From Olsenella uli (GTDB lineage: Bacteria > Actinomycetota > Coriobacteriia > Coriobacteriales > Atopobiaceae): a DNA stretch of 64,000 bases. Below, piece by piece: positions 4,624 through 43,369 of the stretch. A program made the translations under genes and the position numbers. Location of the stretch: NCBI RefSeq assembly GCF_016900775.1, contig NZ_JACJKN010000011.1:1-64000 (forward strand), given 5' to 3'. A model generated the notes under the pieces. The model ran no database searches and was not told where the DNA came from. It saw only the letters and a program-made list of their open reading frames with translations. Positions within the stretch are counted from its first letter, which is position 1. Every line of letters begins with the position of its first letter.

Positions 4624-5946
4624 GTGCGCTTTCTCATCGTCACGCTCGGCTGCGCCAAGAACGAGGTCGACTCCGACCGCATGCGCGCCCTGCTGCTCGC
4701 CGACGGCTTCGAGGAGACGCCCGAGGCGGGCGAGGCCGACGTCGCCATCGTCAACACGTGCTCGTTTCTCGCCTCGGCGACGGAGGAGTCCGTCGAGGCC
4801 ACGCTCGAGCTCGCCGAGGAGCGCTCCGAGGGGGTCCGCTCCTGCCCGATCGTGATGTGCGGCTGCGTGCCCTCGCGCTACGGCGACGCCCTCGCCGCGG
4901 AGCTCCCCGAGGTCGCGGCCTTCGTGCGCGCCGAGGACGAGGACGGCATCGCGGGCGTGGTCCGCGGGGTGCTCGGCCTGCCCGTCTCGGGCGCGGCCGC
5001 CCCGCCCGAGACGCTGCGCACCGTCGAGGGCACGAGCTCCTTCGTCAAGATCTCCGAGGGGTGCGACCGCTTCTGCACCTTCTGCGCGATTCCCTACATC
5101 CGCGGGCGCTACCACTCCCGCCCGGCCGACGAGATCGTCTCCGAGGTCCGCGCGCTCATGGAGGGCGGCGTGCGCGAGGTCGTGCTCATCGGCCAGGACA
5201 CGGGCGTCTGGGGCTCGGACCTCGCCGAGGGGGACACCCTCGCCGCGCTCCTGCGCGAGGTGGCCGAGGCCGTGCGGCCCTACGGCGGCTGGGTGCGCGT
5301 GCTCTACCTCCAGCCCGAGGGCATGACCGACGAGCTCATCGCCACCATCCGCGACGTGCCCGAGGTGCTGCCCTACATCGACATCCCCATCCAGCACTGC
5401 TCGTCCCGCGTGCTGCGCGCCATGGGGCGGCCCGGCTCGCCCGACGAGCTGCGTGCGCTCTTCTCGCGGCTGCGCGCGGAGATCCCCGGCATGGTGCTGC
5501 GCAGCACGGGCATGGCGGGCTTTCCCGGCGAGACGGACGAGGAGGCCGACGAGCTCTACGACTTCATCGCCGAGCAGGAGTTCGACTACTGCTCCGTCTT
5601 CGCGTACTCGCCCGAGGAGGGCACGCGCGCCGCGACGATGCCGGACCAGGTGGACGAGGGCATAAAGCTCGAGCGCACGCAGCGCCTGATCGACCTCACC
5701 GAGCAGCTCGGCTTCGCGGCCACCGCCTCCCACGTGGGCGAGCGCGTCCGCGTGATCGTGGACGGCGTCGAGGAGTCAGATGACGGCCCCGAGCTCATCG
5801 GCCACGCCTGGTTCCAGGCGCCGGACTCCGACGGGGCCGTGCACATCGCCTGCGGCGAGGCCGCGGTCGGCGACATCGTGACCGTGGACCTCGTGGACTC
5901 GTTCTGCTACGAGCTCGTGGGCGAGCTCGTCGGGGAGGAGGGCTAG
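4624..5946 (+). CDS. rimO: Ribosomal protein S12 methylthiotransferase RimO
   Basis: This radical-SAM methylthiotransferase adds a methylthio group to an aspartate of ribosomal protein S12. The start is GTG 4624 after GAGGGGG. The N-terminal UPF0004 domain carries the three cysteines of the auxiliary cluster (LGCAKNEVDSD, NTCSF, CGCVPS). The radical-SAM motif C147-x3-C151-x2-C154 (CDRFCTFC) follows, and a TRAM domain ends the protein. LGCAKNEVDS and the 440-residue length favour RimO over MiaB, and a separate MiaB is present at 12.3 kb. The stop lies three bases before pgsA, so this is one operon. Confidence 0.96.
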   Translation: MRFLIVTLGCAKNEVDSDRMRALLLADGFEETPEAGEADVAIVNTCSFLASATEESVEATLELAEERSEGVRSCPIVMCGCVPSRYGDALAAELPEVAAFVRAEDEDGIAGVVRGVLGLPVSGAAAPPETLRTVEGTSSFVKISEGCDRFCTFCAIPYIRGRYHSRPADEIVSEVRALMEGGVREVVLIGQDTGVWGSDLAEGDTLAALLREVAEAVRPYGGWVRVLYLQPEGMTDELIATIRDVPEVLPYIDIPIQHCSSRVLRAMGRPGSPDELRALFSRLRAEIPGMVLRSTGMAGFPGETDEEADELYDFIAEQEFDYCSVFAYSPEEGTRAATMPDQVDEGIKLERTQRLIDLTEQLGFAATASHVGERVRVIVDGVEESDDGPELIGHAWFQAPDSDGAVHIACGEAAVGDIVTVDLVDSFCYELVGELVGEEG

Positions 5947-5949
5947 CGC

Positions 5950-6549
5950 ATGGCCGGCGAGAAGGGCATCTGGACGCCCGCGAACGTGGTGACGTGCGTG
6001 AGGATCGCGCTCATCCCCGTCTTCATGGTGGTGGCCGCGGCCGCCGAGATCCGCGGCGAGGCGCCGCTTGCCGTGGCGGCGTTTGTCATCTACGCCACGC
6101 TCTCGCTCACGGACAAGGTTGACGGCCACCTCGCCCGCTCCCGCAACGAGATCACCGACTTCGGCAAGTTCCTCGACCCCATAGCCGACAAGCTACTCGT
6201 CTTCTCCGCGCTCCTGCTCCTGCTCGAGCAGGGCTGGGTGAGCGTGTGGGCCGTCTTCGTCATCCTGCTGCGCGAGTTCCTCGTGAGCGCGCTGCGCATG
6301 GTTGCCGCCTCGAGCGGCGAGGTCATCGCCGCCGACTCCCTCGGCAAGGCCAAGACCGCCGTCACGATGGTGGCGCTGTGCGGCTTCTACCTGGCATTCG
6401 CGCTGCTCTCCCTCGGCGCGCTCGACCTCGGCGCGACGGTGCTGCTCGTCGCGCGCGCCCTGTTCGCCGCCGCCGTCGTGCTCACCGTGGTCTCGGGCGC
6501 CCAGTACTTCTGGGGCGCGCGCCACGTGGTCTTCGGGAGGGGCGCGTGA
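5950..6549 (+). CDS. pgsA: CDP-diacylglycerol--glycerol-3-phosphate 3-phosphatidyltransferase
   Basis: The enzyme makes phosphatidylglycerolphosphate, the committed step to phosphatidylglycerol and cardiolipin, in the membrane. The protein is 199 residues with about five membrane helices. The CDP-alcohol phosphatidyltransferase signature reads DKVDGHLARSRNEITDFGKFLDPIADK (only its ends are diagnostic: DxxDGxxAR and GxxxDxxxD). It starts three bases after rimO and ends in a GTGA overlap with the cinA-type gene. A second CDP-alcohol phosphatidyltransferase lies at 27.6-28.3 kb. This one has the classic PgsA N-terminus TPANVVTCVRI. Confidence 0.93.
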   Translation: MAGEKGIWTPANVVTCVRIALIPVFMVVAAAAEIRGEAPLAVAAFVIYATLSLTDKVDGHLARSRNEITDFGKFLDPIADKLLVFSALLLLLEQGWVSVWAVFVILLREFLVSALRMVAASSGEVIAADSLGKAKTAVTMVALCGFYLAFALLSLGALDLGATVLLVARALFAAAVVLTVVSGAQYFWGARHVVFGRGA

Positions 6550-7076
6550 GCGGCGGGCGCGCCCCGGCGTGGGACGCCTGCGTGCGCGAGGCCGCCCGCG
6601 CGCTCGACGCCGCGCGCGCCGCGGGCCTCACCCTGGGCTGCGCTGAGAGCTGCACGGGCGGGCTCGTCGCCGGCGCGCTCACCGCGGTCGCCGGGTCGTC
6701 CGACGTCATGCGCGGCGGCGTGGTGAGCTACGCCATCGCCGTCAAGCGCGCAGTGCTCGGCGTGTCCGCGGAGGTGCTCGACGCGCCCGGCGTGGGGGCC
6801 GTCTCGGGGGAGTGCGCGACGCAGATGGCCGAGGGCGCCCGTCGCGTGCTCGGCTGCGACGTGGCCGTGTCGGTGACCGGGATCGCGGGACCGGGCGGCG
6901 CCGAGCCCGGAAAGCCGGTCGGCACCGTGTGGATGGGGCTTGCCACCCCGCGCGGGACGCGCGCCGAGCGCTTCTGCTTCTCGGGCGGCAGGGACGAGGT
7001 CAGGCGTGCCGCCGTCGCGGCCGCGCTCGCGCTCCTTCGTGAAGGCTCCGTGGAGGCCGCGGGCCCTGCGCAATAG
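6546..7076 (+). CDS. CinA C-terminal domain protein (NMN amidohydrolase PncC type)
   Basis: This 176-residue protein has only the CinA C-terminal domain, the type that deamidates nicotinamide mononucleotide in pyridine-nucleotide recycling. I chose GTG 6546, which overlaps the pgsA stop as GTGA; longer frames run through pgsA in another phase. Diagnostic stretches are LGCAESCTGGLVAG, GGVVSYAIAVKRAVLGV and VTGIAGPGGAEPGKPVGTVW. The pgsA-cinA-recA order is common in Gram-positive genomes. The N-terminal molybdopterin-binding domain of full-length CinA is absent, so competence-related functions should not be assumed. Confidence 0.92.
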   Translation: MSGGRAPAWDACVREAARALDAARAAGLTLGCAESCTGGLVAGALTAVAGSSDVMRGGVVSYAIAVKRAVLGVSAEVLDAPGVGAVSGECATQMAEGARRVLGCDVAVSVTGIAGPGGAEPGKPVGTVWMGLATPRGTRAERFCFSGGRDEVRRAAVAAALALLREGSVEAAGPAQ

Positions 7077-7109
7077 GCGCCCCGCTCCGTCGCGGCCGCG
7101 AGCGGCGCC
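7076..7109 (+). terminator. GC-rich stem-loop after cinA-type gene
   Basis: GGCGCC-(CC)-GCTC pairs with GAGCGGCGCC across a short GC loop, directly at the stop codon. No T run follows, so this is a terminator candidate of only moderate strength upstream of the separately promoted recA. Confidence 0.4.
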
Positions 7110-7145
7110 CCTGCCTCGGCCTTCCGGGCGCGCCCGGTGCTACCC

Positions 7146-7195
7146 GTCGGCCGTCCGTCAGCTCCCCGCGCGCCTCGTGTCGGCCGTGCGTCAGC
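7146..7195 (+). repeat. Direct repeat pair upstream of the recA promoter
   Basis: GTCGGCCGTCCGTCAGC at 7146-7162 recurs at 7179-7195 with one mismatch (GTCGGCCGTGCGTCAGC). The start-to-start spacing is 33 bases, about three helical turns, and the second copy ends 28 bases before the -35 box. This could be a protein-binding site on one face of the helix. No known binding motif is recognised. Confidence 0.5.
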
Positions 7196-7222
7196 GGGCA
7201 TCGCTACGATGGTGGCGCGGTG

Positions 7223-7251
7223 TTGACTTAGAACGGTTGTTCGGATACCAT
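7223..7251 (+). promoter_or_regulatory. recA promoter with internal SOS (LexA) box
   Basis: A -35 box TTGACT (7223-7228) and a -10 box TACCAT (7246-7251) are separated by 17 bases. Inside the spacer sits GAAC-GGTT-GTTC (7231-7242), a perfect GAAC-N4-GTTC SOS operator of the Gram-positive/actinobacterial type. LexA bound here would block RNA polymerase directly. The lexA gene is present at 16.7-17.3 kb and its own upstream region carries similar boxes. Confidence 0.9.
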
Positions 7252-7285
7252 CGACGGCGGTAGAACGAGCCTCAAGGGAGTGAGC

Positions 7286-8392
7286 ATGGCCAAGACGAAG
7301 GGCGTTGCCAAGGAGATCCACCCGAGGACCACCGGCGAGGAGCGCGAGAAGGTCCTCGAGTCCACGACGGCGGAGATAGAGAAGAAGTTCGGCAAGGGCG
7401 CGATCATGCGCTTCGGGGACGACGGGCCCAGCCTCGAGGTCGAGGCCATCCCCACGGGCTCGCTCGCGCTCGACGCGGCGCTCGGCATCGGCGGCGTCCC
7501 GCGCGGCCGCATCGTCGAGATCTACGGGCCCGAGTCGTCCGGCAAGACCACGCTCTCGCTCGAGATCCTCGCCGAGGCGCAGGCCATGGGCGGCGTCGTG
7601 GCGTTCATCGACGCCGAGCACGCCCTCGACCCGGGCTACGCCGCCCGCATCGGCGTGGACATCGACGAGGTCCTCATCTCCCAGCCCGACACCGGCGAGC
7701 AGGCGCTCGAGATCTGCGACATGCTCGTCCGCTCGGGCGCGATCGACGTCGTGGTCATCGACTCGGTGGCCGCCCTCACGCCGCGCGCCGAGATCGAGGG
7801 CGAGATCGGCGACTCCACGGTCGGCCTGCAGGCGCGCCTCATGAGCCAGGCGCTGCGCAAGCTCGCGGGCTCGCTCTCCAAGTCCAACACCACCTGCATC
7901 TTCATCAACCAGCTGCGCGAGAAGATCGGCGTCATGTTCGGCAACCCCGAGACCACGCCGGGCGGCCGCGCGCTCAAGTTCTTCTCGTCCGTGCGCATGG
8001 ACATCCGCCGCATCGACTCCATCAAGGTCAACGGCGAGGTCGTGGGCAACCGCGTCCGCGTGAAGGTCGTCAAGAACAAGGTGGCGCCCCCGTTCAAGCA
8101 GGCCGAGTTCGACATCATGTACGGCCAGGGCATCTCCAAGGAGGGCTCGATCCTCGACGAGGGTGTCAAGTACGGCGTCGTCACCAAGTCGGGCTCCTGG
8201 TTCACCTACGAGACTGAGCAGGGCTCGGAGCGCCTGGGGCAGGGCAGGGAGGCCGCGAAGGAGTTCCTCGCCTCCAACCCCGAGCTCAGGGACGAGATCG
8301 ACCACAAGGTGCGCGTTGCCTGCGGCCTCGAGCTCGGCGACGAGCGCGTCGGCGCCCCGGTCGAGCTCGTCGAGGGGGACGTCCTCTCGTGA
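7286..8392 (+). CDS. recA: Recombinase RecA
   Basis: RecA is the ATP-dependent strand-exchange protein of homologous recombination and the co-protease that triggers LexA self-cleavage. I chose ATG 7286 because AAGGGAG lies five bases upstream; an in-frame GTG at 7280 overlaps that ribosome site. The 368-residue protein has Walker A GPESSGKT at residues 81-88, the VVIDSVAAL Walker B segment, and the [20 protein letters not shown] loop-2 region (cited by ends). Its length is somewhat above the usual 345-355 because of an N-terminal extension of about 20 residues. It is preceded by an SOS-controlled promoter and overlaps recX as GTGA. Confidence 0.99.
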
Positions 8393-9042
8393 CGCCCACC
8401 CCGTCGCCCGCGCCTGACTGGGACGTCGCCCTCCCCGCGCGCGGCTCGCACCCCGGCGCGCCCGCACGCGTCGCCCTCGCCGACGGCTCCTCGCGCGCCG
8501 TGCCGGCGGCCGTGGGACGCCGCCTGCAGCGGATGCGCCGCGAGGGGAGGGCCCCTGCGGGCGGAGCCGCGCTCGACGGCGCCATCGACGAGCTGCTCGA
8601 GCAGTGCGCGCGCGAGCGGGTGGAGCAGCTCGTCTCGCGGCGGGACTACTCCGCCGACGAGCTCCGGGCGCGCCTCGCGCGCGACGGCTACCCGCAGGCC
8701 GTGGTCTCCTCGCGCGTCCGGCGCGCCTGCGAGGCGGGCGTCGTGGACGACGCGCGCTACGCCGCCTCCTTCGTCCGCTCCAAGGCGCTCGCCGGCTGGG
8801 GGAGGGCCAAGATCGAGCGCGCGCTCTCGGCGCGCGGGGTCTCCCTCGACGAGCTGGGCGACGCGGCGGACGAGCTCCTCTCGGACGACGAGGAGTACGG
8901 GCGCGCGCTCTCGCTCGCAGAGCGCCGCGTCCGCTCCGGGCGCTCCGAGCTCGGCTCGCTCGTGCGCTTCCTCTGCGGGCGGGGCTTCTCGCCGGGCGTG
9001 GCCTGGCGCGCTGCGCGCGCGGCGCTGGGCGACGACGAGTAG
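8389..9042 (+). CDS. recX: Regulatory protein RecX
   Basis: RecX binds RecA filaments and modulates their activity. GTG 8389 overlaps the recA stop (GTGA), so expression is translationally coupled to recA. The C-terminal two thirds shows the RecX tandem three-helix repeats: [18 protein letters not shown], then [21 protein letters not shown] and [11 protein letters not shown]. The first 65 residues or so are a Pro/Ala/Arg-rich extension not typical of short RecX proteins. The 217-residue length fits actinobacterial versions. It is last in the SOS transcript. Confidence 0.92.
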
Positions 9043-9071
9043 CCCGCTCACCGTCCCTACCACGGCCTCAT

Positions 9072-9100
9072 TTGACATAACGTTACGCGGAACTTACGAT
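9072..9100 (+). promoter_or_regulatory. Strong sigma-A type promoter for rny
   Basis: A perfect -35 TTGACA (9072-9077) and a -10 TACGAT (9095-9100) are separated by exactly 17 bases. Transcription would begin near 9107, leaving an untranslated leader of roughly 185 bases before rny (9293). The leader holds no recognisable riboswitch or terminator, but its length is notable for a genome with otherwise tight spacing. Confidence 0.8.
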
Positions 9101-9292
9101 TGAGTTGCTATTGGAGCGTTCGCTCACGCTGGTTCGCCAGCTGATGTCTATATTTCGTTCGATACCCGTCGGCCGCCCCGCGGCCCACAGCCGAATGCAA
9201 CTTGACAGCGCCTCCGATGGCGGGTTCCGCGGCATCGCCGCGGTCTCCAGAACCACGCTTGACCCACATTCGTCGTCCGAGGAGCAGCAAAC

Positions 9293-10843
9293 ATGGAAAT
9301 CGTATTCGCACTCGTGGGGCTCGCCATAGGAGCGGGCGTCGTCTACTTCATCCTATCCGGCCAGAGCAACTCCAAGGTGAGGGCCGCCGAGGCGCAGCTC
9401 GAGAGCGCCCGCGTCGACGCCGAGCGCGTCCGCGAGGAGGCCGCGCGCCAGGCCGAAAACGCCAAGAAGGAGGCCGTGCTCGAGGCCAAGGAGCAGATTC
9501 TCGCCCTCAGGCAGGCCTCCGAGCAGGAGGAGAAGAAGCGCAAGGGCGAGCTCCAGTCCCTCGAGAACCGCATCATGCAGCGCGAGGAGTCGCTCGACCA
9601 CCGAAACGACGCGCTCGACCGCCGCGAGCACCAGCTCTCGAGCCTCCAGGGGCAGCTCGACCGCCGCAAGAACGACCTCGACGAGATGGAGGTCCGCCAG
9701 ACCGCCGAGCTCGAGCGCATCGCCGGGCTCTCAACCGACGAGGCCCACGACGAGCTGCTCGCCCGCGTCCGCGCCGACGCCGTCCGCGACGAGGCGCAGA
9801 TCCTGCGCGAGTCCGAGCAGCGCGTGCGCGCCCAGGCCGACAAGACCGCGCGCGAGATCGTCTCCACCGCCATCCAGCGCTGCGCCGCCGACCAGGCCGG
9901 CGAGATCACCGTCACCTCCGTCCACATCCCCTCCGACGACCTCAAGGGCCGCATCATCGGCCGCGAGGGGCGCAACATCCGCACCTTCGAGCAGGTCTCG
10001 GGCGTTTCGCTCGTCATCGACGACACGCCGGAGACCGTGGTCCTCTCGAGCTTCGACCCGGTCCGCCGCGAGACCGCGCGCGTCGCGCTCGAGAACCTCA
10101 TCGCCGACGGGCGCATCCACCCGGCGCGCATCGAGGAGCTCTACAAGAAGGCCGAGACGCTCGTCGCCGAGCGCGTCCGCGAGGCCGGCGAGCAGGCCGC
10201 CTTCGACGCCGGCATCCACGACCTGCACCCCGAGCTCGTGAAGACCCTCGGCGCGCTGCGCTACCGCACCTCCTTCGGCCAGAACGTCCTGTCGCACTCC
10301 GCCCAGGTCTCCGCGCTCTGCGGCATCATGGCCTCAGAGCTCGGCGTCGACGAGGTCTCCGCCAAGCGTGCGGGCCTTCTGCACGACCTCGGCAAGGCCA
10401 TCGACCACGAGGTCGAGGGCCCGCACGCCGTGATCGGCGCCGACCTCGCCCGCCGCTACGGCGAGCGCCCCGACATCGTCCACGCCATCGAGGCGCACCA
10501 CGCCGACGTCGAGCCCGACACCGTCCTCGACGTGCTCGTGCAGGCCGCCGACGCCATCTCCGCCGCCCGCCCGGGCGCGCGCCGCGAGAGCGCCGAGAGC
10601 TACATCAAGCGCCTCGAGAAGCTCGAGGAGATCTCCAACGCGCACGAGGGCGTCGAGCGCACCTACGCCATGCAGGCGGGCCGCGAGCTCCACGTCATGG
10701 TCGAGCCGGAGAAGATCTCCGACGCCCAGGCCACGGTGCTCGCCCACGACATCGCCAAGCAGATCGAGGACGAGATGGAGTACCCCGGCCAGGTTCGCGT
10801 GGTGGTCATCCGCGAGTCCCGCGCCGTCGACGTGGCGAAGTAG
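9293..10843 (+). CDS. rny: Ribonuclease Y
   Basis: RNase Y is the membrane-anchored endoribonuclease that starts mRNA decay in many Gram-positive bacteria. ATG 9293 follows GAGGAGC. In order, the 516-residue protein has an N-terminal membrane helix (VFALVGLAIGAGVVYFIL), a long charged coiled coil to about residue 200, a KH RNA-binding domain (DDLKGRIIGREGRNI) and an HD metal-dependent phosphodiesterase domain with the catalytic His-Asp at residues 364-365 (LLHDLGKAID). It is followed three bases later by the GHKL ATPase gene. Confidence 0.97.
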   Translation: MEIVFALVGLAIGAGVVYFILSGQSNSKVRAAEAQLESARVDAERVREEAARQAENAKKEAVLEAKEQILALRQASEQEEKKRKGELQSLENRIMQREESLDHRNDALDRREHQLSSLQGQLDRRKNDLDEMEVRQTAELERIAGLSTDEAHDELLARVRADAVRDEAQILRESEQRVRAQADKTAREIVSTAIQRCAADQAGEITVTSVHIPSDDLKGRIIGREGRNIRTFEQVSGVSLVIDDTPETVVLSSFDPVRRETARVALENLIADGRIHPARIEELYKKAETLVAERVREAGEQAAFDAGIHDLHPELVKTLGALRYRTSFGQNVLSHSAQVSALCGIMASELGVDEVSAKRAGLLHDLGKAIDHEVEGPHAVIGADLARRYGERPDIVHAIEAHHADVEPDTVLDVLVQAADAISAARPGARRESAESYIKRLEKLEEISNAHEGVERTYAMQAGRELHVMVEPEKISDAQATVLAHDIAKQIEDEMEYPGQVRVVVIRESRAVDVAK

Positions 10844-10846
10844 CCC

Positions 10847-11947
10847 ATGGCAGGCGCCCCCGCAGCCGCGGCCCAGGACCTCGTGGGCTTCGTCTCCTCG
10901 ATGGGCGGGGAGCGCGCCCTGCGCGTCGAGGAGAACCTCGGGGAGGGCTTCGTCCGCCTGCGCGTCGCCGAGGCCGAGCGGCGCCAGGCCAAGCACGACG
11001 TCCGCTGCGTCGAGGACGTCGTCATCGAGATGCTGCGCAACGCCCGCGACGCCGGTGCGCGCCACATCTACGTGGCGACGGCCCGCGAGGGCACCCGGCG
11101 CGTGACCACGATGCTCGACGACGGGCGGGGCATCCCGGCCGACATGCAGGAGCGCGTCTTCGAGGCGCGCGTCACCTCGAAGCTCGAGAGCTTCCACATG
11201 GACCGCTGGGGCGTCCACGGCCGCGGCATGGCCCTTTACTCCATCAGGGAGAACGCCCTCTCGGCCGAGGTCGTCTCCTCCGCCCCGGGCAAGGGGGCGG
11301 CCATCAGGGTGGTGACCGACGTCGGCTCGCTCCCCGAGCGTGCCGACCAGTCCACCTGGCCCTCCCTCGGGACGGACGACGACGGAGAGCAGTCCTGCGT
11401 CCGGGGTCCGCACAACATCGTGCGCACGTGCTGCGAGTTCGCCCTCGAGGAGCGGGGCGCCTGCGAGGTCTACCTCGGCTCACCCGCCGAGGTCGCCGCC
11501 ACCGCCCGCGCCCGCATGCGCCCCTCGGCCGACGCCTCGGAGCTCCTCTTCATGGACGCGCTCTCGGAGCTTCCCGTCCTCGAGCGGCTGAGCGCCGCCG
11601 CCGACGCCTCGGAGCTGCTGCGCGTGGCCTCCTCGCTCGGGCTCGAGATGTCTGAGCGCACCGCGCACCGCATCGTCTCGGGCCAGGTGCGGCCGGCCCG
11701 CAGCGTCCTCGCGCGCCTCACGCACCGCGGCGACGCCCGTCCGCAGCGCCCCCGCGAGGTCGACCTCGAGCGCGACCGGCGCGGCCTCAGGATCGCATCC
11801 GCCGACGTCGAGGAGTTCTCGCGGGCGATGGAGCGCGACTTCGCCCTTCTCGCCGAGCGCTACTACCTCTCGCTCTCGTCGGACCCCAAGGTGCGCGTGG
11901 GGCGGGGCAAGATCACCGTCACCTTCGACCTCGAGGAGAGTGACTGA
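10847..11947 (+). CDS. GHKL-type ATP-binding protein of unknown role
   Basis: The first 180 residues or so form a HATPase_c (GHKL) fold. The N box is E61-x3-N65 (IEMLRNARDAGA), the G1 box is DDGRGIP at 91-97, and a glycine-rich G2/lid lies at 122-130 (GVHGRGMAL), the kind seen in histidine kinases, MutL and Hsp90. There is no phospho-acceptor histidine domain, membrane helix or MutL C-terminal domain. The remainder (about 190-366) contains a DnaA/HTH-like helical stretch and no domain I recognise. It starts three bases after rny and precedes spoVS. The ATP-binding fold is confident, but the cellular function is unknown. Confidence 0.75.
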   Translation: MAGAPAAAAQDLVGFVSSMGGERALRVEENLGEGFVRLRVAEAERRQAKHDVRCVEDVVIEMLRNARDAGARHIYVATAREGTRRVTTMLDDGRGIPADMQERVFEARVTSKLESFHMDRWGVHGRGMALYSIRENALSAEVVSSAPGKGAAIRVVTDVGSLPERADQSTWPSLGTDDDGEQSCVRGPHNIVRTCCEFALEERGACEVYLGSPAEVAATARARMRPSADASELLFMDALSELPVLERLSAAADASELLRVASSLGLEMSERTAHRIVSGQVRPARSVLARLTHRGDARPQRPREVDLERDRRGLRIASADVEEFSRAMERDFALLAERYYLSLSSDPKVRVGRGKITVTFDLEESD

Positions 11948-36483: not shown

Positions 36484-37527
36484 CTACAGGACGGGAGGGC
36501 TCTCGAGCAGCATGTGCCAGGCCTCCCATCGCTCGGCGTCGTAGGCGTCCGTCCTGCCGTCGCGTCTCGCCGGCCGCTGGCCCAGGGCAATCCTCACCTG
36601 CTCCATGGAGCTGCGCCACCGCGGGAACGACTTGCGCTGCAGCTCGGTAAACGTGAAATGGGTGATCTTGCGCGCGCCATTGATCTGGTTGCCGCGCTCG
36701 ACGTCACTCTGTCGCTTGGCCTCCCCTCCGTGGGTCAGCCTGGGATCGTAGTCTATGCCCACGATGCGCCTGACGCCCGCGGGGTCCCGCGCGAGGATCG
36801 TCACGTCCGGGAATCGGGTGGTGTAGTGCCGCTCGCCGTTTGGGCCCACGCGGTCGAGCACGCGGATCCCCCTGTTGAGGGAGACGTCCTTGCACGCGTA
36901 TCCGCCCAGCCGGTATGGGAGCAGGGCAAGCTCGGCGATTCCGCCCTCGGGCGGCGAGAGCGCCCCGTCGCGGACGAACGCCAGCGCGCGCTCCGCCGCC
37001 CTGACGCCGCGAAGCCCCTTGGCGCGGCGAAGGAAGGCCGCGATGGCCCCCACCGAGGTCAGCGGCTCATCGAAATCCGCCCTGTCCGCCAGCCCCGAGT
37101 CCTCGAACTCGTCGAGCCGATACCCCGAGCAGAGCGCCATGCCCGCATAGGCGGCAACGCGGACGTCCTCGACCGCCGCAATCTGCACGAAGGTGAGCTC
37201 AGGCGAGGTCACCATGAGGTCGTAGCCGCGTATGCCCGCGGGGATGACGGAGCCCCTCGGCAGCTCGCCCGAGCAGAGGTGGCACCTCAGCCCCTCGCGG
37301 CCCCTGCGAAGCCCCCGCTCGGCGACGAGGACGTCGATGGCGCGGCCGGCGCCATCGTCGAGGGGAAGCCTCAGCGCCAGGTAGTCGAGCGCCTCGCGCA
37401 CCTCCTCCGCGCGCGGCGCGCCCGACAGGAGGGGCCGCGACCCCTCCGAGTCCGATCCGTCGTGACGTGACGCGAAGTTCCTGAGCAGCCAGCGAAGGGC
37501 CGTCCAATGTGAGATGCAGAGCGCCAT
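36484..37527 (-). CDS. Hypothetical nuclease-like protein (Vsr/DUF559-like C-terminus)
   Basis: The product has 347 residues. The C-terminal part reads FPDVTILARDPAGVRRIVGI, then DYDPRLTHGG, R-x2-SD-x-ER-x-NQ and ITHFTFTELQ. This is the order of a Vsr/DUF559-type endonuclease core, with candidate acids D241, D259 and D261 plus H266. Residues 81-120 carry a Cys pair (RCHLC) and VTSPELTFVQIA, a layout I associate with multi-copy hypothetical proteins of Coriobacteriia that recall AbiEi-type antitoxins. ATG 37527 follows GGAGGG. The function is unknown. It could belong to a toxin-antitoxin or defence module, but no partner is adjacent. Confidence 0.65.
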   Translation of the reverse strand: MALCISHWTALRWLLRNFASRHDGSDSEGSRPLLSGAPRAEEVREALDYLALRLPLDDGAGRAIDVLVAERGLRRGREGLRCHLCSGELPRGSVIPAGIRGYDLMVTSPELTFVQIAAVEDVRVAAYAGMALCSGYRLDEFEDSGLADRADFDEPLTSVGAIAAFLRRAKGLRGVRAAERALAFVRDGALSPPEGGIAELALLPYRLGGYACKDVSLNRGIRVLDRVGPNGERHYTTRFPDVTILARDPAGVRRIVGIDYDPRLTHGGEAKRQSDVERGNQINGARKITHFTFTELQRKSFPRWRSSMEQVRIALGQRPARRDGRTDAYDAERWEAWHMLLESPPVL

Positions 37528-37875
37528 AGTCCCTCCCTTCCGCGACGTCTCTGGGAGAAGAGCCTCGCAGATGGCGCTCCCGCGCGGCTTTCGATTGGCT
37601 CCCGGCGGCCTGCCGCCCGGCCGACCCGGGCGCGCGAGGCACGTGGCGAGGCGCACTGCGCCTCGGTGAAGCCCCAGATGGCGGCTACCGCTTGGGAGCG
37701 GGCTGCGCCCGCTCGAGGCCCCGCGGGAAACGCGCGGCCATCGCGCGGTTTGACTGTGGGGCCCAAAAGACCGCGAATCCTCCACAGCCGGCGGCGCATC
37801 TTCGGGGAGGGCGCGCGAGCCTGGTCGAGCCGTCGGGTTTGGGGTATAAGGCATCTGGCAACCCAAGGAGGAATC
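37528..37875. other. 348-bp gene-free stretch upstream of the flavodoxin gene
   Basis: No gene is recognised. Two short perfect hairpins are present: CGAGGCGC/GCGCCTCG (37647-37665) and GAGCGGGC/GCCCGCTC (37696-37714). A -10-like TATAAG lies at 37845-37850, about 26 bases before the flavodoxin start, without a good -35. This is probably the promoter/leader region of both divergent genes. Confidence 0.55.
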
Positions 37876-38397
37876 ATGCTCTATACGATCATCTGCAGCT
37901 CCAAGACCGGCAACACCGCCAAGCTCGCGCAGCGCGCCCGTGAGGCGCTGGACGCGCGGGGCGGGCGCGACGCCGGATCGGCGGAGGGCGCCGACCTCGT
38001 GCTGCTGGGCTCATGGACCGACAAGGGCGGGCTTGACCCGGCGCTCGGGGACGTCCTGCCGCAGCTCGCCGGCAAGCGGGTCTTCCTCTTCGGCACCTGC
38101 GGCTTCGGCGGCGACCCGGCCTACTACGACAGGGTGCTCGACAACTTCGCCGCCGCGCTGCCCGCCGACGCGCGAGTCGTGGGGCGCTTCATGTGCCAGG
38201 GCCAGATGCCGCCCGCCGTCCGCGCGCGCTACGAGGGGATGGCCGAGCGGGACCCCGCGCGCTTCCTCCCCATGATCGAGAACTTCGACCGCGCCCTCGG
38301 CCACCCGAGCGCGGACGACCTCGACGCCTTCGAGGCTGCCCTGCGCGGGGCCCTCGCCCGGGACGAGGGGGCGAGCCCGGATGGCGCCCGTGCGTAG
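37876..38397 (+). CDS. Flavodoxin family protein
   Basis: This is a 173-residue FMN-binding electron carrier. The phosphate-binding loop SSKTGNTAKLA lies at residues about 9-19, followed by the LLGSWTDKGG and FGTCGFGG loops typical of flavodoxin-like (BilS/EF-type) proteins. ATG 37876 follows AAGGAGG. It overlaps the DUF2229 gene by 17 bases and is the first gene of a four-gene operon. This suggests it delivers electrons to the activase/dehydratase-like proteins encoded next, in place of ferredoxin. Confidence 0.87.
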   Translation: MLYTIICSSKTGNTAKLAQRAREALDARGGRDAGSAEGADLVLLGSWTDKGGLDPALGDVLPQLAGKRVFLFGTCGFGGDPAYYDRVLDNFAAALPADARVVGRFMCQGQMPPAVRARYEGMAERDPARFLPMIENFDRALGHPSADDLDAFEAALRGALARDEGASPDGARA

Positions 38398-39391
38398 CGC
38401 CCTCGAGCGCCGCGCGCCCTTCGCCGACGTCTCCGTGGTGGGGCTGCCGCGCGCCCTCATGTACTATCGGCTCGGCGCCAAGTGGCGGGCCTTCTTCGAG
38501 GCGCTCGGGCGCAAGGTCCGCGTGAGCGCGCCCTCGGACCGCGCCGTCTTCGAGCGCGGGCAGGCGCTCTCCGTGGACGAGTGCTGCCTCGCCTCCAAGC
38601 TCTACCTCGGCCACGTGGACGCGCTCGCGGACGAGGCGGACGCCGTCTTCGTCCCGTCCTTCGCCATCCCCGGGCCGCTTCGCTCCTACTGCACGAAGTT
38701 CCAGGCCCTGCCCGACCTCGTGACCAGCGCCTTCTCGCTCGCGGAACGTCCGGTCCGGGTGCTCTCGGCGCTGCTCTCCGAGGGCGGCGCCGAGCGCGAC
38801 GAGCGCGGGTCCTACGCGGCGCTCGCCCAGTCGATGGGCGCCTCGCGCCGGGACGGCGAGCGCGCCTGGCGCGCGGCCTGCGCGGCCCAGCGCGAGCGCG
38901 ACGCCTCCCTCGCCCGGGCCCAGGCCGAGCTCGTCGCCGGCGCGAGGCGCCTGCCCGCGGCCGAGCGGCCGCTGCTCATCCTGCTCTCCGCCCACCCCTA
39001 CGTGGCGCACGACCCCTTCGTCGCCGGGCCCGTCGTGGACGCCCTGCGCGCCAACGGCGCCACGGTGCTCTTCGCCGACGAGTTCGACCACGCGCGCGGC
39101 CTGCGCCGCTCGCGCGACTTCTCGCCGTCGCTGCCGTGGATCGTCAACCGCGAGCTCGTGGGCGCCATCTTGGAGCTGCACGAGCGCGTCGACGGCGTCG
39201 TGCTCGTGAGCGCGTTCCCGTGCGGGCCCGACTCCATGACCGACGACGCCATCGCCCTCTGCGTGAAGGGCCGCCCGCTGCTCACGCTCACCGTCGACGC
39301 GCAGAGCGGCACGGCGGGCGTCGAGACGCGCGTCGAGAGCTTCGTCGACATCCTGTCCTACCAGCGCAAGGGAGGCTACCTCCATGAGTGA
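38381..39391 (+). CDS. DUF2229 / acyl-CoA dehydratase activase-related protein
   Basis: The 336-residue protein matches the DUF2229 part of large BadF-type activases. The opening VVGLPRALMYYRLGAKWRAFFEALG, cited in part, is characteristic. Cysteines C68-C69 (SVDECCLASK), C104 (RSYCTKFQ) and one in SAFPCGPDSM are placed like Fe-S ligands of HgdB-fold proteins. ATG 38381 lies inside the flavodoxin end. In many Firmicutes this domain is fused to the activase; here it is a separate gene. The reaction is unknown. Confidence 0.82.
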   Translation: MAPVRSALERRAPFADVSVVGLPRALMYYRLGAKWRAFFEALGRKVRVSAPSDRAVFERGQALSVDECCLASKLYLGHVDALADEADAVFVPSFAIPGPLRSYCTKFQALPDLVTSAFSLAERPVRVLSALLSEGGAERDERGSYAALAQSMGASRRDGERAWRAACAAQRERDASLARAQAELVAGARRLPAAERPLLILLSAHPYVAHDPFVAGPVVDALRANGATVLFADEFDHARGLRRSRDFSPSLPWIVNRELVGAILELHERVDGVVLVSAFPCGPDSMTDDAIALCVKGRPLLTLTVDAQSGTAGVETRVESFVDILSYQRKGGYLHE

Positions 39392-40562
39392 TCGCACCGA
39401 GGCCGACGGGCCGCGCGCCCGGGTGAGCGTCCTTTCCGGCGCGTCGAGGGCCACGACGGCCCTGAGGCGGCGCTCGCGGGGCTCCCGGCACTCGAGGAAG
39501 CGCGTCGCCTTCATGCACTACGGCTACTACGACGTGGCCTTCCAGTACTTCGTCGAGCACGTGCTCGACGCGGACTACGTGCGCATGCCCGCGCCCACGC
39601 GCCGCACGCTCGAGATCGGGACCGAGCACAGCAACGACTACGTCTGCGCGCCCTTCAAGCACATCCTCGGCGACTACGTCGAGGCCCTCGAGGCCGGCGC
39701 CAACGTGCTCGTGCAGTTCACGGGGTACTGCCGGCTCACCTACTACGGCGAGCTGCAGGAGATGGTCCTGCGCGACATGGGCTATGACGACTTCGAGATG
39801 CTCAACTTCTCCTTCGTGGCGGGGAGGTCCTTCAAGGACTACGTCACGTACTGCAAGCGGGTGGTGAACCCCCGGCTCTCCGTGCCGGCGGGCGTGGCCA
39901 ACATGCTCGTGCTCTTCCGCATGGTCGAGGACCTCGACGCCTACAACGACTACTACCTCGCCAACGCCGGCTTCGAGCGCGAGCCGGGCTCCTTCGAGCG
40001 CGCCCGGGAGGCCTTCTTCGACGACATGCGCTGCTGCGCGACCATGTCCGACGTCAACCACGCCTTCCGCCGCGGCATGGGGGCCCTGCGCGCGCTGCCC
40101 ACCGACAAGCCGGAGCGCCCGGTGCGCGTGGGGCTCACCGGCGAGTTCTTCACCGTGATGGACCCGCCGAGCAACCTCGAGCTCGAGCGCAAGCTCCTCT
40201 CGCTCCACGTCGAGCTGGCCCGCGCTATCACCATCACCAACCGCTTCCTGCGCTACAACGAGCCCAACGTCCGCCGCTCCATCGCCGACTACGCGGCCTA
40301 CGACATGGGCCCCACCTCGAGCCTCACCATCGCCGCGGCCAAGCGCTACATGGAGGAGGGGTTCGACGGCGTGGTCCACGCCAAGTCGGCGGGCTGCACG
40401 CCCGAGATCGACTGCATGCCCGTGCTGCAGCGGCTCTCGCGCGACCACCACGTGCCCGTGCTCTTCCTGAGCTACGACACCCAGACGAGCGACACCGGCC
40501 TCGACACGCGCCTCGAGGCCTTCTACGACATGCTTGCGATGAGAAAGGCAAAGACGATATGA
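39384..40562 (+). CDS. 2-hydroxyacyl-CoA dehydratase-like (HgdB-fold) protein
   Basis: The 392-residue protein has an HgdB-like fold with cysteines C88 (NDYVCAPFKH), C116 (FTGYCRLTYYG) and two near residue 336 (SAGCTPEIDCMPV), the usual Fe-S cluster ligands. The first 40 residues are a basic, disordered extension. ATG 39384 follows GGGAGG and overlaps the DUF2229 gene by eight bases. HgdB-type proteins use an ATP-driven low-potential electron from the activase. The substrate could be an acyl-CoA, or, as for double-cubane reductases, a small molecule. Confidence 0.83.
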   Translation: MSDRTEADGPRARVSVLSGASRATTALRRRSRGSRHSRKRVAFMHYGYYDVAFQYFVEHVLDADYVRMPAPTRRTLEIGTEHSNDYVCAPFKHILGDYVEALEAGANVLVQFTGYCRLTYYGELQEMVLRDMGYDDFEMLNFSFVAGRSFKDYVTYCKRVVNPRLSVPAGVANMLVLFRMVEDLDAYNDYYLANAGFEREPGSFERAREAFFDDMRCCATMSDVNHAFRRGMGALRALPTDKPERPVRVGLTGEFFTVMDPPSNLELERKLLSLHVELARAITITNRFLRYNEPNVRRSIADYAAYDMGPTSSLTIAAAKRYMEEGFDGVVHAKSAGCTPEIDCMPVLQRLSRDHHVPVLFLSYDTQTSDTGLDTRLEAFYDMLAMRKAKTI

Positions 40563-41530
40563 CGAGAAGAACGGCGTTTCTCGGCGTCGACACCGGGTCG
40601 ATCTCCACGAAGGGCGTCGTCATAGACGAGCGCGGGGCCATCCTCGCGCGCTCCTACCTCTGGACGGAGGGCGCCCCCACCGACGCCGCGCGCCGCGTGG
40701 TGGACGAGCTCGCCGCGCAGCTCGACCGCGGGGCCTACGAGGTCCGCGCCGTGGGCACCACCGGGTCGGCGCGCCGCCTCGTGGGCGCCATGCTCGGGGC
40801 CCAGGTGGTCAAGAACGAGATAACGGCGCACGCCGTGGGCACCACCTTCCTGCACCCCGACGTCCGCACGATCCTGGAGATCGGCGGCCAGGACTCCAAG
40901 ATCATCTGCGTCGAGAACGGCGTGGCCGTGGACTATGCCATGAACACGCTCTGCGCGGCCGGCACGGGCTCGTTCCTCTCGTCGCAGGCGCACCGGCTGG
41001 GCGTTGCCGTGGAGGAGTTCGGCGACATCGCGGCCACCTCGGAGCACCCCGCCAACATCGCCGCGCGCTGCACGGTCTTCGCGGAGAGCGACCTCGTCCA
41101 CAAGCTCCAGGTGGGCTACGAGAAGCGCGACGTCATCGCCGGGCTCTGCCGCGCGGTGGCTACCAACTACCTCAACAACGTGGCGAAGGGCAAGAGGGTG
41201 GTCGCGCCCGTGGTGTTCCAGGGCGGCGTCTCCAAGAACTCCGGCGTGGTGCGCGCCTTCGAGGACGAGCTCGGCATGGACGTGCTCGTGGACGCCGACG
41301 GGCACCTCATGGGCGCCTTCGGGGCGGCCCTGCTCGCGGCCGACGCCCCCGCCTCCGCGCGCTGCCCCTTCGCCTGGGACGTCGACGACTTCGAGTTCCG
41401 CACGCGCGAGGTCGTCTGCGGGCGGTGCGCCAACCACTGCGAGGTCGTCTGCGTCTACCGCGACGACGACCTGATTGACTCCTGGGGCAACCGCTGCGAG
41501 CGCGGCGCCGTCCGCCCCAAACTCGCCTAA
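40559..41530 (+). CDS. Acyl-CoA dehydratase activase (BadF/BadG/BcrA/BcrD ATPase, HgdC-like)
   Basis: This is a 323-residue ASKHA-fold ATPase. Phosphate-1 motif GVDTGSISTKGVVID lies at 9-23 and phosphate-2 EIGGQDSK at 107-114. Cysteines C132 (LCAAGTGSF) and C171 (ARCTVFAESD) are the pair that binds the inter-subunit [4Fe-4S] in HgdC. A C-terminal extension adds CGRCANHC-x3-C and NRCERG, the linker normally found inside larger fused activases. It overlaps the HgdB-like gene by four bases, and its TAA is part of the terminator palindrome. Confidence 0.9.
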   Translation: MTRRTAFLGVDTGSISTKGVVIDERGAILARSYLWTEGAPTDAARRVVDELAAQLDRGAYEVRAVGTTGSARRLVGAMLGAQVVKNEITAHAVGTTFLHPDVRTILEIGGQDSKIICVENGVAVDYAMNTLCAAGTGSFLSSQAHRLGVAVEEFGDIAATSEHPANIAARCTVFAESDLVHKLQVGYEKRDVIAGLCRAVATNYLNNVAKGKRVVAPVVFQGGVSKNSGVVRAFEDELGMDVLVDADGHLMGAFGAALLAADAPASARCPFAWDVDDFEFRTREVVCGRCANHCEVVCVYRDDDLIDSWGNRCERGAVRPKLA

Positions 41531-41560: not shown

Positions 41561-43369
41561 CTACTCTATCCCCAGGCGCTCAGAGAGCTCGAGCCACTCG
41601 TCCTCGAGGGCCTCGCGCTCGGCGAGGCACGCGTCGAGCGCCTCCTGCGCGGCCATGAGGGCGGCGTAGTCGCTCGCGTCCACGGTGGCCATCTCCGCGC
41701 GGAGGCGCTCCGGGTCGCCTGCCGTCTTCTCGAGCTTGCGGCTCACCGCGTCGAAGCGCTTCTTGAGCTCGCGGCGCTCCTGGTTGGTGAGACCGCCCGT
41801 GGCGGGGCGAGAAGGACCCTCCGCCCCCGGCTCGTCCGCGGGGGAGGAGGCCGCCCCGCCGCCCTTCTCGCCCAGCAGGCGCAGGTACTCGTCCACGCCT
41901 CCGGGGACGTGGCGCACGTGGCCGTCTATGAGGGCGAACTGGTCGTCGGTCACGCGCTCCATCAGGTAGCGGTCGTGGCTCACCACCAGGAGCGTCCCGG
42001 GCCAGCTGTCGAGTAGGTCCTCCATCACGGCGAGCATGTCCGTGTCCAGGTCGTTGCCGGGCTCGTCGAGTACGAGCACGTTGGGCTCCTCCAGGATGAC
42101 GCACAGAAGCGCCAGACGCCGACGCTGCCCGCCGGAGAGGTCCTTGATGAAGTTCTGCAGCTCGCGCTGCTCGAAGCCCAGCCGCTCGATGAGCTGCGTG
42201 GGGCTCTGCATCTTGCCGCCCACGAGGTAGCTCCGCTTGTAGCGGCCGAGCAGCTCGAGCACCCGCCAGTCGTCCTTCTCGCCGAGCGCGTCCAGGTGCT
42301 GGCTCATGAAGCCAAAGCGCACCGAGGCCCCGATCTTCACGGTGCCGGACGTAGGCGCAAGCGCGCCCGTCATGAGCGCGAGCAGCGTGGACTTCCCCGC
42401 CCCGTTGGCGCCGAGGATGCCGTAGCGGTCGCCGGGGCCGATGAGCCAGTCCACGTCTCTGATCACGGCGGGTCCGCCCGGGTAGGCAAAGCTCACGCCG
42501 GACATCTCGATGACCTGCTTGCCCAGGCGGGAGACGGCAAGGCGCCTGAGCTCGAGCGGGTTTCTGAGCGGCGGGTCGTTGGCGATGAGGGCGCGCGCCG
42601 CCTCCACGCGGAAGCGCGGCTTGCTCGTGCGCGCCTTGGCGCCGTGCGCGAGCCAGTTGAGCTCCTTGCGCAGCGTGTTCTGGCGGCGCTCCTCCATGAC
42701 GGCGGCCTGGCGGTCGCGCTCCACGCGCTGCTGGATGTAGGCTGAGTAGCCGCCCTCGAAGGGCTCGATGCGGCGGTCGTGGACCTCCCACATGTGCTCG
42801 CAGACCTCGTCCAGGAACCAGCGGTCGTGCGTGACCACGAGGAGCGCGCCCTCCCCCGCCGGCCAGCGGCGGCGCAGATGCTCCGCCAGCCACTCGATGG
42901 CGGCGAGGTCGAGGTGGTTGGTGGGTTCGTCCATGCAGATGACGTCCCAGGTGTGGCAGAGCACGCGGGCCAGGTCCACGCGGCGGCGCTGCCCGCCGGA
43001 GAGCTCGCCCACGGGGGCGTCAAGGGAGAGGTCGCCCACGAGCTCGTCCAGGATCTGGCGGATGCGGGCGTCCGAGGCCCAGGTGTACTCCGGCACGTCG
43101 CCGAAGATCGCGCGGCGCACGGGGTCCGCGTCCGCGAGCCGGTCGGCCTGGCCGAGGTAGCCCACGGAGATGCTGCGGCGCCACGTGACCGTTCCGACGT
43201 CCGGCTCGAGCACGCGGGCCACGATCTCCAGCAGCGTGGACTTGCCGTCCCCGTTGCGGCCGACGATCCCGATGCGCTCGCCCTCGTTGATGCCTATGGC
43301 CTGGTCCTCCAGCACGCGCTTGCCGGGCCACTCGTGGCCCACGTGCTCGAGTCCGATGAGGATTCCCAT
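41561..43369 (-). CDS. ABC-F family ATP-binding protein (Uup-like)
   Basis: This soluble protein has two ABC domains. ABC-F members act on the ribosome, and Uup-type members affect assembly and transposon excision. The 602 residues contain Walker A GRNGDGKST (the D is typical of Uup) and GANGAGKST, signatures LSGGQRRRV and LSGGQRRRLALL, a linker with EERRQNTLRKELNWLAHGAKAR, cited in part, and a C-terminal coiled coil. ATG 43369 has AGGAAGG upstream; the upstream extension is rejected. It converges on the activase operon. Confidence 0.92.
   Translation of the reverse strand: MGILIGLEHVGHEWPGKRVLEDQAIGINEGERIGIVGRNGDGKSTLLEIVARVLEPDVGTVTWRRSISVGYLGQADRLADADPVRRAIFGDVPEYTWASDARIRQILDELVGDLSLDAPVGELSGGQRRRVDLARVLCHTWDVICMDEPTNHLDLAAIEWLAEHLRRRWPAGEGALLVVTHDRWFLDEVCEHMWEVHDRRIEPFEGGYSAYIQQRVERDRQAAVMEERRQNTLRKELNWLAHGAKARTSKPRFRVEAARALIANDPPLRNPLELRRLAVSRLGKQVIEMSGVSFAYPGGPAVIRDVDWLIGPGDRYGILGANGAGKSTLLALMTGALAPTSGTVKIGASVRFGFMSQHLDALGEKDDWRVLELLGRYKRSYLVGGKMQSPTQLIERLGFEQRELQNFIKDLSGGQRRRLALLCVILEEPNVLVLDEPGNDLDTDMLAVMEDLLDSWPGTLLVVSHDRYLMERVTDDQFALIDGHVRHVPGGVDEYLRLLGEKGGGAASSPADEPGAEGPSRPATGGLTNQERRELKKRFDAVSRKLEKTAGDPERLRAEMATVDASDYAALMAAQEALDACLAEREALEDEWLELSERLGIE

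Follow-up and report, generated by a model that had tools for sequence, protein, structure and literature searches.

Four consecutive genes in Olsenella uli raise the question of what is reduced by an enzyme system whose components are, in many anaerobes, fused in one very large protein, and of which among the four belong to that system. The open reading frames (ORFs) lie on the forward strand at positions 37876 to 41530 of contig NZ_JACJKN010000011.1, within the 64,000-nucleotide stretch analyzed here (the window), overlap by 17, 8, and 4 bases, and encode a flavodoxin, a DUF2229 protein, an HgdB-like protein, and an activase. A sequence-only reading of this DNA had described them as a split dehydratase/activase operon with its own flavodoxin; the ORFs and their Pfam matches confirm the four families, yet the unit that is conserved among relatives consists of three genes, DUF2229, HgdB-like, and activase (38381 to 41530, hereafter the trio), not four. 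Very probably, the trio is a split form with one activase within the DUF2229 branch of benzoyl-coenzyme A (CoA) reductase/2-hydroxyacyl-CoA dehydratase (BCR/HAD) enzymes, the branch which also includes PlsA/PlsR and Ger, and it apparently represents a conserved three-gene reductase of a separate class.

Composition and conservation of the three-gene unit

The first gene of the trio (38381 to 39391) encodes a DUF2229 protein of 336 amino acids (Red1; PF09989, 127.9 bits, E value of 5.7e-37), and the second (39384 to 40562) an HgdB-like protein of 392 amino acids (Red2), in which the HGD-D domain (PF06050, 32.3 bits, E value of 1e-7) covers residues 320 to 384 only. The product of the third (40559 to 41530), an activase of 323 amino acids, matches the BcrAD_BadFG ATPase family (PF01869, 175.1 bits, E value of 2.7e-51) and exceeds the cutoff of the acyl-CoA dehydratase activase family TIGR00241 (203.5 versus 125.4 bits). 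Forty-five trio loci were compared, comprising 44 retrieved by a match to the HgdB-like protein and the window itself; the gene order is identical in 44, the 45th ending at a contig end, and the association of the three genes is thus far stronger than chance would give. With start positions chosen by script, the DUF2229 and HgdB-like genes overlap or directly adjoin one another in 36 of 44 loci and the HgdB-like and activase genes in 31 of 45, the commonest overlaps being 8 bases for the first pair (25 loci) and 4 bases for the second (30 loci).

In the DUF2229 protein, aligned for 41 of the 45 loci (L061, L064, and L094, which are of odd length, and L093, at a contig end, were left out), C104 and C281 are invariant and C69 is present in 40 rows, with a gap in the other, whereas C68 (37/41) and C294 (34/41) are less conserved. 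C88, C116, and C338 of the HgdB-like protein are found in every locus, as against 39 for C157 and 33 for C344. All 45 activases carry C132 and C171, the bridging cysteines of the TIGR00241 family, together with C287, C290, C294, and C313 of a C-terminal tail which reads CGRCANHC...NRC in the window and contains the linker cysteines noted in the sequence-only reading; C197 is also invariant, and C298 is present in 43. Beyond the order, the six reductase cysteines are kept in all 41 distant modules, those of Monoglobus and of other lineages of the phylum (including one of the same class), and the six activase cysteines in all 23 in which an activase follows.

A comparison of the DUF2229 profile with the HgdB-like profile gave a match of 294 columns (97.7%, E value of 2.2e-12), so the two parts probably share a fold. 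Judging from this conservation, C69/C104/C281 of the former and C88/C116/C338 of the latter are putative [4Fe-4S] ligands. In BzdNO, as described in the available portion of PMC11971306, BzdN holds a double cubane [8Fe-9S] by Cys36/73/100/263/293/327 and BzdO a single open-site [4Fe-4S] by Cys95/128/380. Three conserved cysteines in each subunit, the number seen in BzdO, therefore point to single clusters; the trio shares a superfamily with BzdNO and the double-cubane cluster protein (DCCP) but lacks a six-cysteine subunit. Two HgdB-fold partners of an ATP-driven reductase had been anticipated, which stands, while the three to four cysteines proposed for each reduce to three that are conserved throughout.

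The HgdB-like profile gave a match at an E value of 1e-20 or better in 53 of 247 sampled genomes of the order Coriobacteriales, a few of the matches being partial; 34 belong to one other family and 12 to a second, and among 140 genomes of the window's own family a strong match was confined to five of its genus. Weaker matches in other genera of this family include G012:C75:578-916 (36% over residues 18 to 124, in a 196-amino-acid frame) and G039:C57:334-753 and G040:C1:855861-856280 (30% over residues 51 to 180, in 471-amino-acid frames), short frames which are neither fused nor clearly of the trio type; the other weak matches listed for the family lie mostly inside long frames. In a sample of the phylum, 112 of 396 genomes gave a match at an E value of 1e-5, and most of those listed from outside the order are short, separate frames, so that the split form is common in other lineages of Actinomycetota. 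It is also found in Monoglobus (Bacillota), where a TSCPD-domain gene (TIGR03905; L110, 10698 to 10943) begins approximately 22 bases after the trio. The two plasmid-collection records matching the HgdB-like protein at an E value of up to 0.01 were from Monoglobus (trio) and Collinsella (fused form), the viral contigs searched held no relative, and an open-access literature search returned no report of a tested function for the split set.

Correspondence with fused proteins

Plasmalogen synthase is presented in PMC12838417, as far as its accessible text goes, with the architecture Act1-Act2-Red1-Red2, encoded either by a single ORF or by the pair plsA and plsR. The host genome itself encodes a fused protein of 1551 amino acids (open frame of 1566) with two activase domains and a DUF2229 domain (PF09989, 295 bits), located at approximately 89 to 92 kb of contig G000:C1 (L038, 5649 to 10304), in agreement with the earlier distinction between split and large fused forms. 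Relatives of the fused reductase half (E value of 1e-60 or better) are present in 237 of the 247 genomes of the order, and those among the matches listed occupy frames of 1343 to 1871 amino acids. Of the 53 genomes with an HgdB-like match, 52 also contain a relative of the fused protein (the exception being G169, in which the HgdB-like match is partial); the trio therefore constitutes an extra system beside the fused protein, which is probably the housekeeping copy. By analogy of architecture and reported distribution, the fused proteins would be plasmalogen synthases or glycerol ester reductases: what is available of PMC9702350 reports plsA/plsR, which convert an acyl ester to an alk-1'-enyl ether, in Coriobacteriales, Eggerthellales, and Listeria, and Ger (Thermotoga maritima, Desulfatibacillum alkenivorans) is described in PMC11150832 and PMC13274423, in the parts at hand, as a PlsA homolog which reduces glycerol esters to alkyl ethers.

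Eight fused proteins were compared with the trio, among them a one-gene Listeria record and a two-gene Fusobacterium record (975 and 404 amino acids) whose products were joined. In host frame numbering, all eight conserve C182/C221 (Act1), C502/C506/C541 (Act2), C663/C666/C670/C689 (linker), C780/C822/C1009 (Red1), and C1171/C1206/C1470 (Red2). Profile alignment placed C69/C104/C281 of the DUF2229 protein on C780/C822/C1009 (99.8% probability), C88/C116 of the HgdB-like protein on C1171/C1206 (99.1%, the alignment stopping at residue 325), and C132/C171/C287/C290/C294/C313 of the activase on C502/C541/C663/C666/C670/C689 (100%). Eleven of the 12 cysteines thus correspond column for column and the 12th weakly, C506 of Act2 lying outside the shared ligand set. 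The activase aligns from residues 3 to 8 through residues 316 to 318 with Act2 plus linker of every fused protein (31 to 38% identity), and in each case with a better E value than against Act1. It follows from these alignments that the trio corresponds to Act2-linker, Red1, and Red2, each made as a protein of its own, with Act1 missing.

The combination of DUF2229, an HgdB-fold second part, and a BcrAD_BadFG activase, by which the PlsA/PlsR-Ger branch is recognized, is present in the trio; the two tandem activase domains of the fused proteins are not, and with a single activase gene the trio is not a fused-type synthase. Relative to PlsA/PlsR (CPE1195/1194 of Clostridium perfringens and the single-gene PlsA of Enterococcus and Lactococcus), it shares the reductase parts, the activase, the four-cysteine linker, and the ligand set, but differs in having one activase rather than two, in being divided into three proteins rather than one or two, and in its position in a tree of the joined Red1 and Red2 parts. 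This tree, built by a quick method with a midpoint root from 21 trios of the order, 41 distant modules, and 8 fused proteins, separates 62 split from 8 fused rows by one branch with a support of 100, so that the trio falls outside the fused/plsA-plsR-type clade as represented by these eight proteins. The trios of the order cluster together, and next to them stands the trio of a genome from the same class. The separation of the two forms suggests, as far as sequences can indicate, a different substrate or product. Ger was set against the trio by description, the consulted portion of PMC13274423 attributing two activation domains to it.

A second fused type (frames of 1472 to 1488 amino acids), which may represent a Ger-like enzyme, occupies its own branch of the tree (L039, L041, and L152 at 6990 to 11429). 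In Collinsella, its end is overlapped by the gene for a TetR regulator.

The flavodoxin and the apparent insertion site

The flavodoxin (37876 to 38397, forward strand; 173 amino acids; Flavodoxin_3, 128 bits, E value of 3.7e-37) exceeds the NCBIfam equivalog cutoff for BilS (165.2 versus 155 bits), the flavodoxin of the bilirubin reductase operon according to the available text of PMC10769871. Of 31 genomes of the genus, 28 carry it, whereas 5 of the 31 have a strong full-length HgdB-like match; it occurs in 4 of the 45 trio loci, directly upstream of the trio in 3. Eight relatives lacking the trio were read. In six of them, the flavodoxin gene lies 0 to 92 bases from an ABC-F type ATPase gene, as expected of an empty site; in one, approximately 5.5 kb separates the two genes, and in one, the stretch contains no ABC-F gene. 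The trio sits between the flavodoxin and ABC-F genes in the window, where the latter is on the reverse strand at 41561 to 43369 (two ABC_tran domains, ABC_tran_Xtn, and ABC_tran_CTD by Pfam), and in L036; it follows the flavodoxin in L034, in which ABC-F is not in the stretch, and lies elsewhere in L035, in which the flavodoxin and ABC-F genes adjoin. The junction looks like an insertion spot, with ABC-F as the right border and no part of the system. Since the flavodoxin is core to the genus, rarely stands beside the trio, and abuts ABC-F where the trio is absent, what had been taken for the system's own flavodoxin is a local arrangement; the four-gene set dissolves into a recurrent trio and a neighbor. 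The flavodoxin may nonetheless act as electron donor to the trio here.

In L173, approximately 5.5 kb of other DNA (5856 to 11375) occupies this junction. The trio's neighboring flavodoxin recalls the BilRS bilirubin reductase in passing the BilS cutoff, but it is not linked to the trio; no BilR-type gene stands beside it, and the only match of the genome to PF00724 (Oxidored_FMN, Old Yellow Enzyme) is on another contig, C13.

Gene neighborhoods of split modules

Neighborhoods were also read at 41 distant loci, 40 from the phylum and one from Monoglobus, among which L115 yielded no module after gene calling. In L123, L139, and L142, which represent three genera of one family, gpsA overlaps the DUF2229 gene upstream and plsB overlaps the HgdB-like gene or follows it within 12 bases, these names resting on a Pfam run on the L142 copies; L142, on the reverse strand, contains two DUF2229/HgdB-like modules and two plsB genes. 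An acyl-carrier-like gene, named by Pfam on one copy, precedes the module in L130, L131, L147, and L149 (four genera, two families) at gaps of -41 to 67 bases, and genes for a glycosyltransferase and an LPG_synthase_TM protein (Pfam on one copy each) lie upstream in four of five loci of another family. The modules beside gpsA/plsB or an acyl-carrier-like gene point to glycerolipids as the field in which the split family operates. In L123, L139, and L142, gpsA, the module or modules, and plsB form an apparent operon, which in L139 and L142 includes a sigma-factor-like gene, named by eye. Within the order, the trio has no neighboring gene family that is common to all families.

Proposed function

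As the fused relatives are PlsA or Ger types by architecture and distribution, a glycerolipid ester becomes the first candidate substrate, in place of the wholly new one that had been expected; by this analogy, it is fairly likely that the substrate is a membrane lipid. On balance, we lean moderately toward the trio being a split lipid reductase, acting from ester to ether or at the aldehyde level, as a second system next to the fused housekeeping synthase.

In this superfamily, an activase homodimer with a bridging cluster pushes electrons, driven by ATP, into a heterodimer that carries two open-site clusters. From the comparisons above we infer the complex, its clusters and electron path, the Pls identity of the fused protein, and the lipid substrate. 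The activase would form a homodimer bridged by a [4Fe-4S] cluster, with C132 and C171 from each chain as ligands, and would take a low-potential electron from a flavodoxin or ferredoxin, perhaps via a second cluster in its tail (C287, C290, C294, and C313). Five solved activators of 243 to 276 amino acids match the activase profile only up to positions 257 to 275, the four-cysteine tail extending past the end of those found, and its role as an entry cluster for the electron donor is plausible. ATP hydrolysis would then drive the electron into the DUF2229/HgdB-like heterodimer, each subunit of which would bind a single [4Fe-4S] cluster by three cysteines, leaving one iron open, and the acyl ester carbonyl of a glycerolipid would be reduced to the ether or to the vinyl-ether/aldehyde level. 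The N-terminal tail of the HgdB-like protein is basic in all 45 loci (the 22 residues preceding V41 have a net charge of +6 to +11), which may be compatible with docking on an anionic lipid.

Several observations weigh against a lipid reductase. C338 falls on C1470 only weakly, when the C-terminal pieces alone are aligned (probability of 2.3, E value of 0.021), and the BLAST alignment of the HgdB-like protein to the fused proteins ends at residues 264 to 281 in seven of eight; given this weak C-terminal match, the chemistry may have changed. BLAST identity between the DUF2229 protein and the fused proteins is 22 to 30% over 318 to 335 residues, the structure model of the HgdB-like protein derives from five aligned rows with a pLDDT (predicted local distance difference test) of 39, and long branches were flagged by the tree tool. 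The Listeria and Fusobacterium proteins are stand-ins for validated PlsA/Ger sequences, and Ger2 of Desulfatibacillum, which is close to an active Ger, gave no ether lipid in E. coli according to the accessible part of PMC11150832. The modules beside gpsA/plsB and acyl-carrier-like genes come without a linked activase and branch elsewhere in the tree than the trios of the order, and they therefore constitute evidence for the family rather than proof for the window copy. Among the recurrent neighbor clusters of the 45 loci of the order, read by eye without Pfam, no lipid gene was recognized; more frequent neighbors of the distant loci, namely, NfnA/NfnB-like genes (13 loci) and DnaJ-, HspR-, and ClpB-like genes (named by eye, 11 loci each), are silent on lipids.

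A bolder and rather doubtful proposal is that the split DUF2229 family constitutes a second class of anaerobic lipid reductase, covering a step that the fused enzymes do not. Given the gpsA, plsB, and acyl-carrier-like neighbors, that step might, as tentatively, involve acyl-glycerol-3-phosphate or acyl-carrier protein early in synthesis, or else another ester position or lipid class. If so, Coriobacteriales and deep-branching Actinomycetota would be expected to contain ether lipids that have not been described from them so far. Anaerobic ether-lipid formation has been assigned to genes only recently (PlsA/PlsR and Ger), and the part of PMC13274423 available calls the role of extra PlsA homologs without activation domains unclear and regards PlsA and Ger as not yet distinguishable from sequence. 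A split sister set with a retained ligand plan opens the former question to a three-gene expression test and casts doubt on the label 2-hydroxyacyl-CoA dehydratase that such genes usually receive.

Alternative explanations

The alternative that survives best, which we nonetheless consider unlikely, is that the trio belongs to the PlsA/Ger branch but has left lipids, serving as an ATP-driven reductase of another acceptor, such as a protein or cofactor which needs low-potential activation, in stress or redox balance. The NfnA/NfnB-like and ClpB-like neighbors in other classes, the lack of a recurrent lipid neighbor in the order, and the deep separation from the fused proteins are in its favor. 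The trio does, however, keep its ligands at the positions used in the fused synthases, and related modules do lie beside gpsA/plsB and acyl-carrier-like genes; moreover, the NfnA-like gene, which is the next same-strand gene in nine loci, is 193 to 1632 bases away, distances that do not establish a single operon.

A second plasmalogen synthase, performing the reaction of the fused protein under other conditions, appears quite improbable. It would explain the common parts and ligand plan, minus one activase, and for Bacillota the section of PMC13274423 on hand links plasmalogens to one activation domain and alkyl ethers to two; a relative of the fused protein is, however, already in place in 52 of 53 genomes, and the tree separates the two forms.

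The double-cubane type favored in the sequence-only reading, namely, a DCCP-like reductase of a small unknown substrate fed by flavodoxin, is very unlikely. The best Foldseek match of the DUF2229 model is indeed DCCP (E value of 5e-5), followed by further DCCP/HAD chains up to 2e-3, but the model is mediocre (pLDDT of 62.9), all TM-scores (template modeling) are below 0.3, and unrelated metal-binding proteins are interspersed among these matches; in a further structure comparison (Z of up to 7.2, DCCP up to 6.7), HAD and DCCP were mixed among unrelated folds. This type needs six cysteines in one subunit, as in BzdN, rather than three, the NCBIfam double_cubane model scored 15.7 bits against a cutoff of 350, and the trio has no linked flavodoxin.

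A 2-hydroxyacyl-CoA dehydratase or benzoyl-CoA-type reductase is hardly credible, for although the activase family (TIGR00241) and the HGD-D C-terminal domain are shared and the HgdB-like profile weakly matches the HAD beta subunit (E value of 0.00096), no HAD/BCR equivalog came near its cutoff for the HgdB-like protein (HadC, 15.7 versus 700 bits), a PDB search with the DUF2229 profile retrieved no chain of HAD, BCR, or DCCP at an E value of up to 1, and the neighbors tested with Pfam included no CoA-ester gene, CoA-transferase, acyl-CoA dehydrogenase, deaminase, or transporter. HadBC and HgdAB with their activators resemble the trio in activase family and HgdB fold, but their solved activators (270 to 276 amino acids) end before the four-cysteine tail. 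The doubt cast earlier on a classic 2-hydroxyacyl-CoA pathway is accordingly upheld, and neither orthology to a characterized CoA dehydratase nor a loss of ligands was found.

Surroundings of the trio and related activases

A link to selenium was considered and set aside: the excerpt of PMC5322559 places an activase near sel genes in Slackia, with no evidence of identity with the trio. The corrinoid activases, as covered in the available text of PMC10418091, are another family. An activase/dehydratase pair is mentioned in Anaerosomatales in the part of PMC9686372 at hand.

The trio and the window have the same GC content, and the GC of the trio at third codon positions is slightly above that of its neighbors (0.966 to 0.976 versus 0.943 to 0.957); horizontal transfer of the trio is possible in view of its patchy occurrence at different sites. 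A CoaBC-like gene of coenzyme A synthesis lies approximately 3 kb downstream of the trio. Upstream of the flavodoxin, a reverse-strand ORF of 460 amino acids (36484 to 37866) had no Pfam match in the stretch from 36487 to 37470; among the eight trio-less relatives, a similar sequence occupies the same place in L172 and lies elsewhere in L174.

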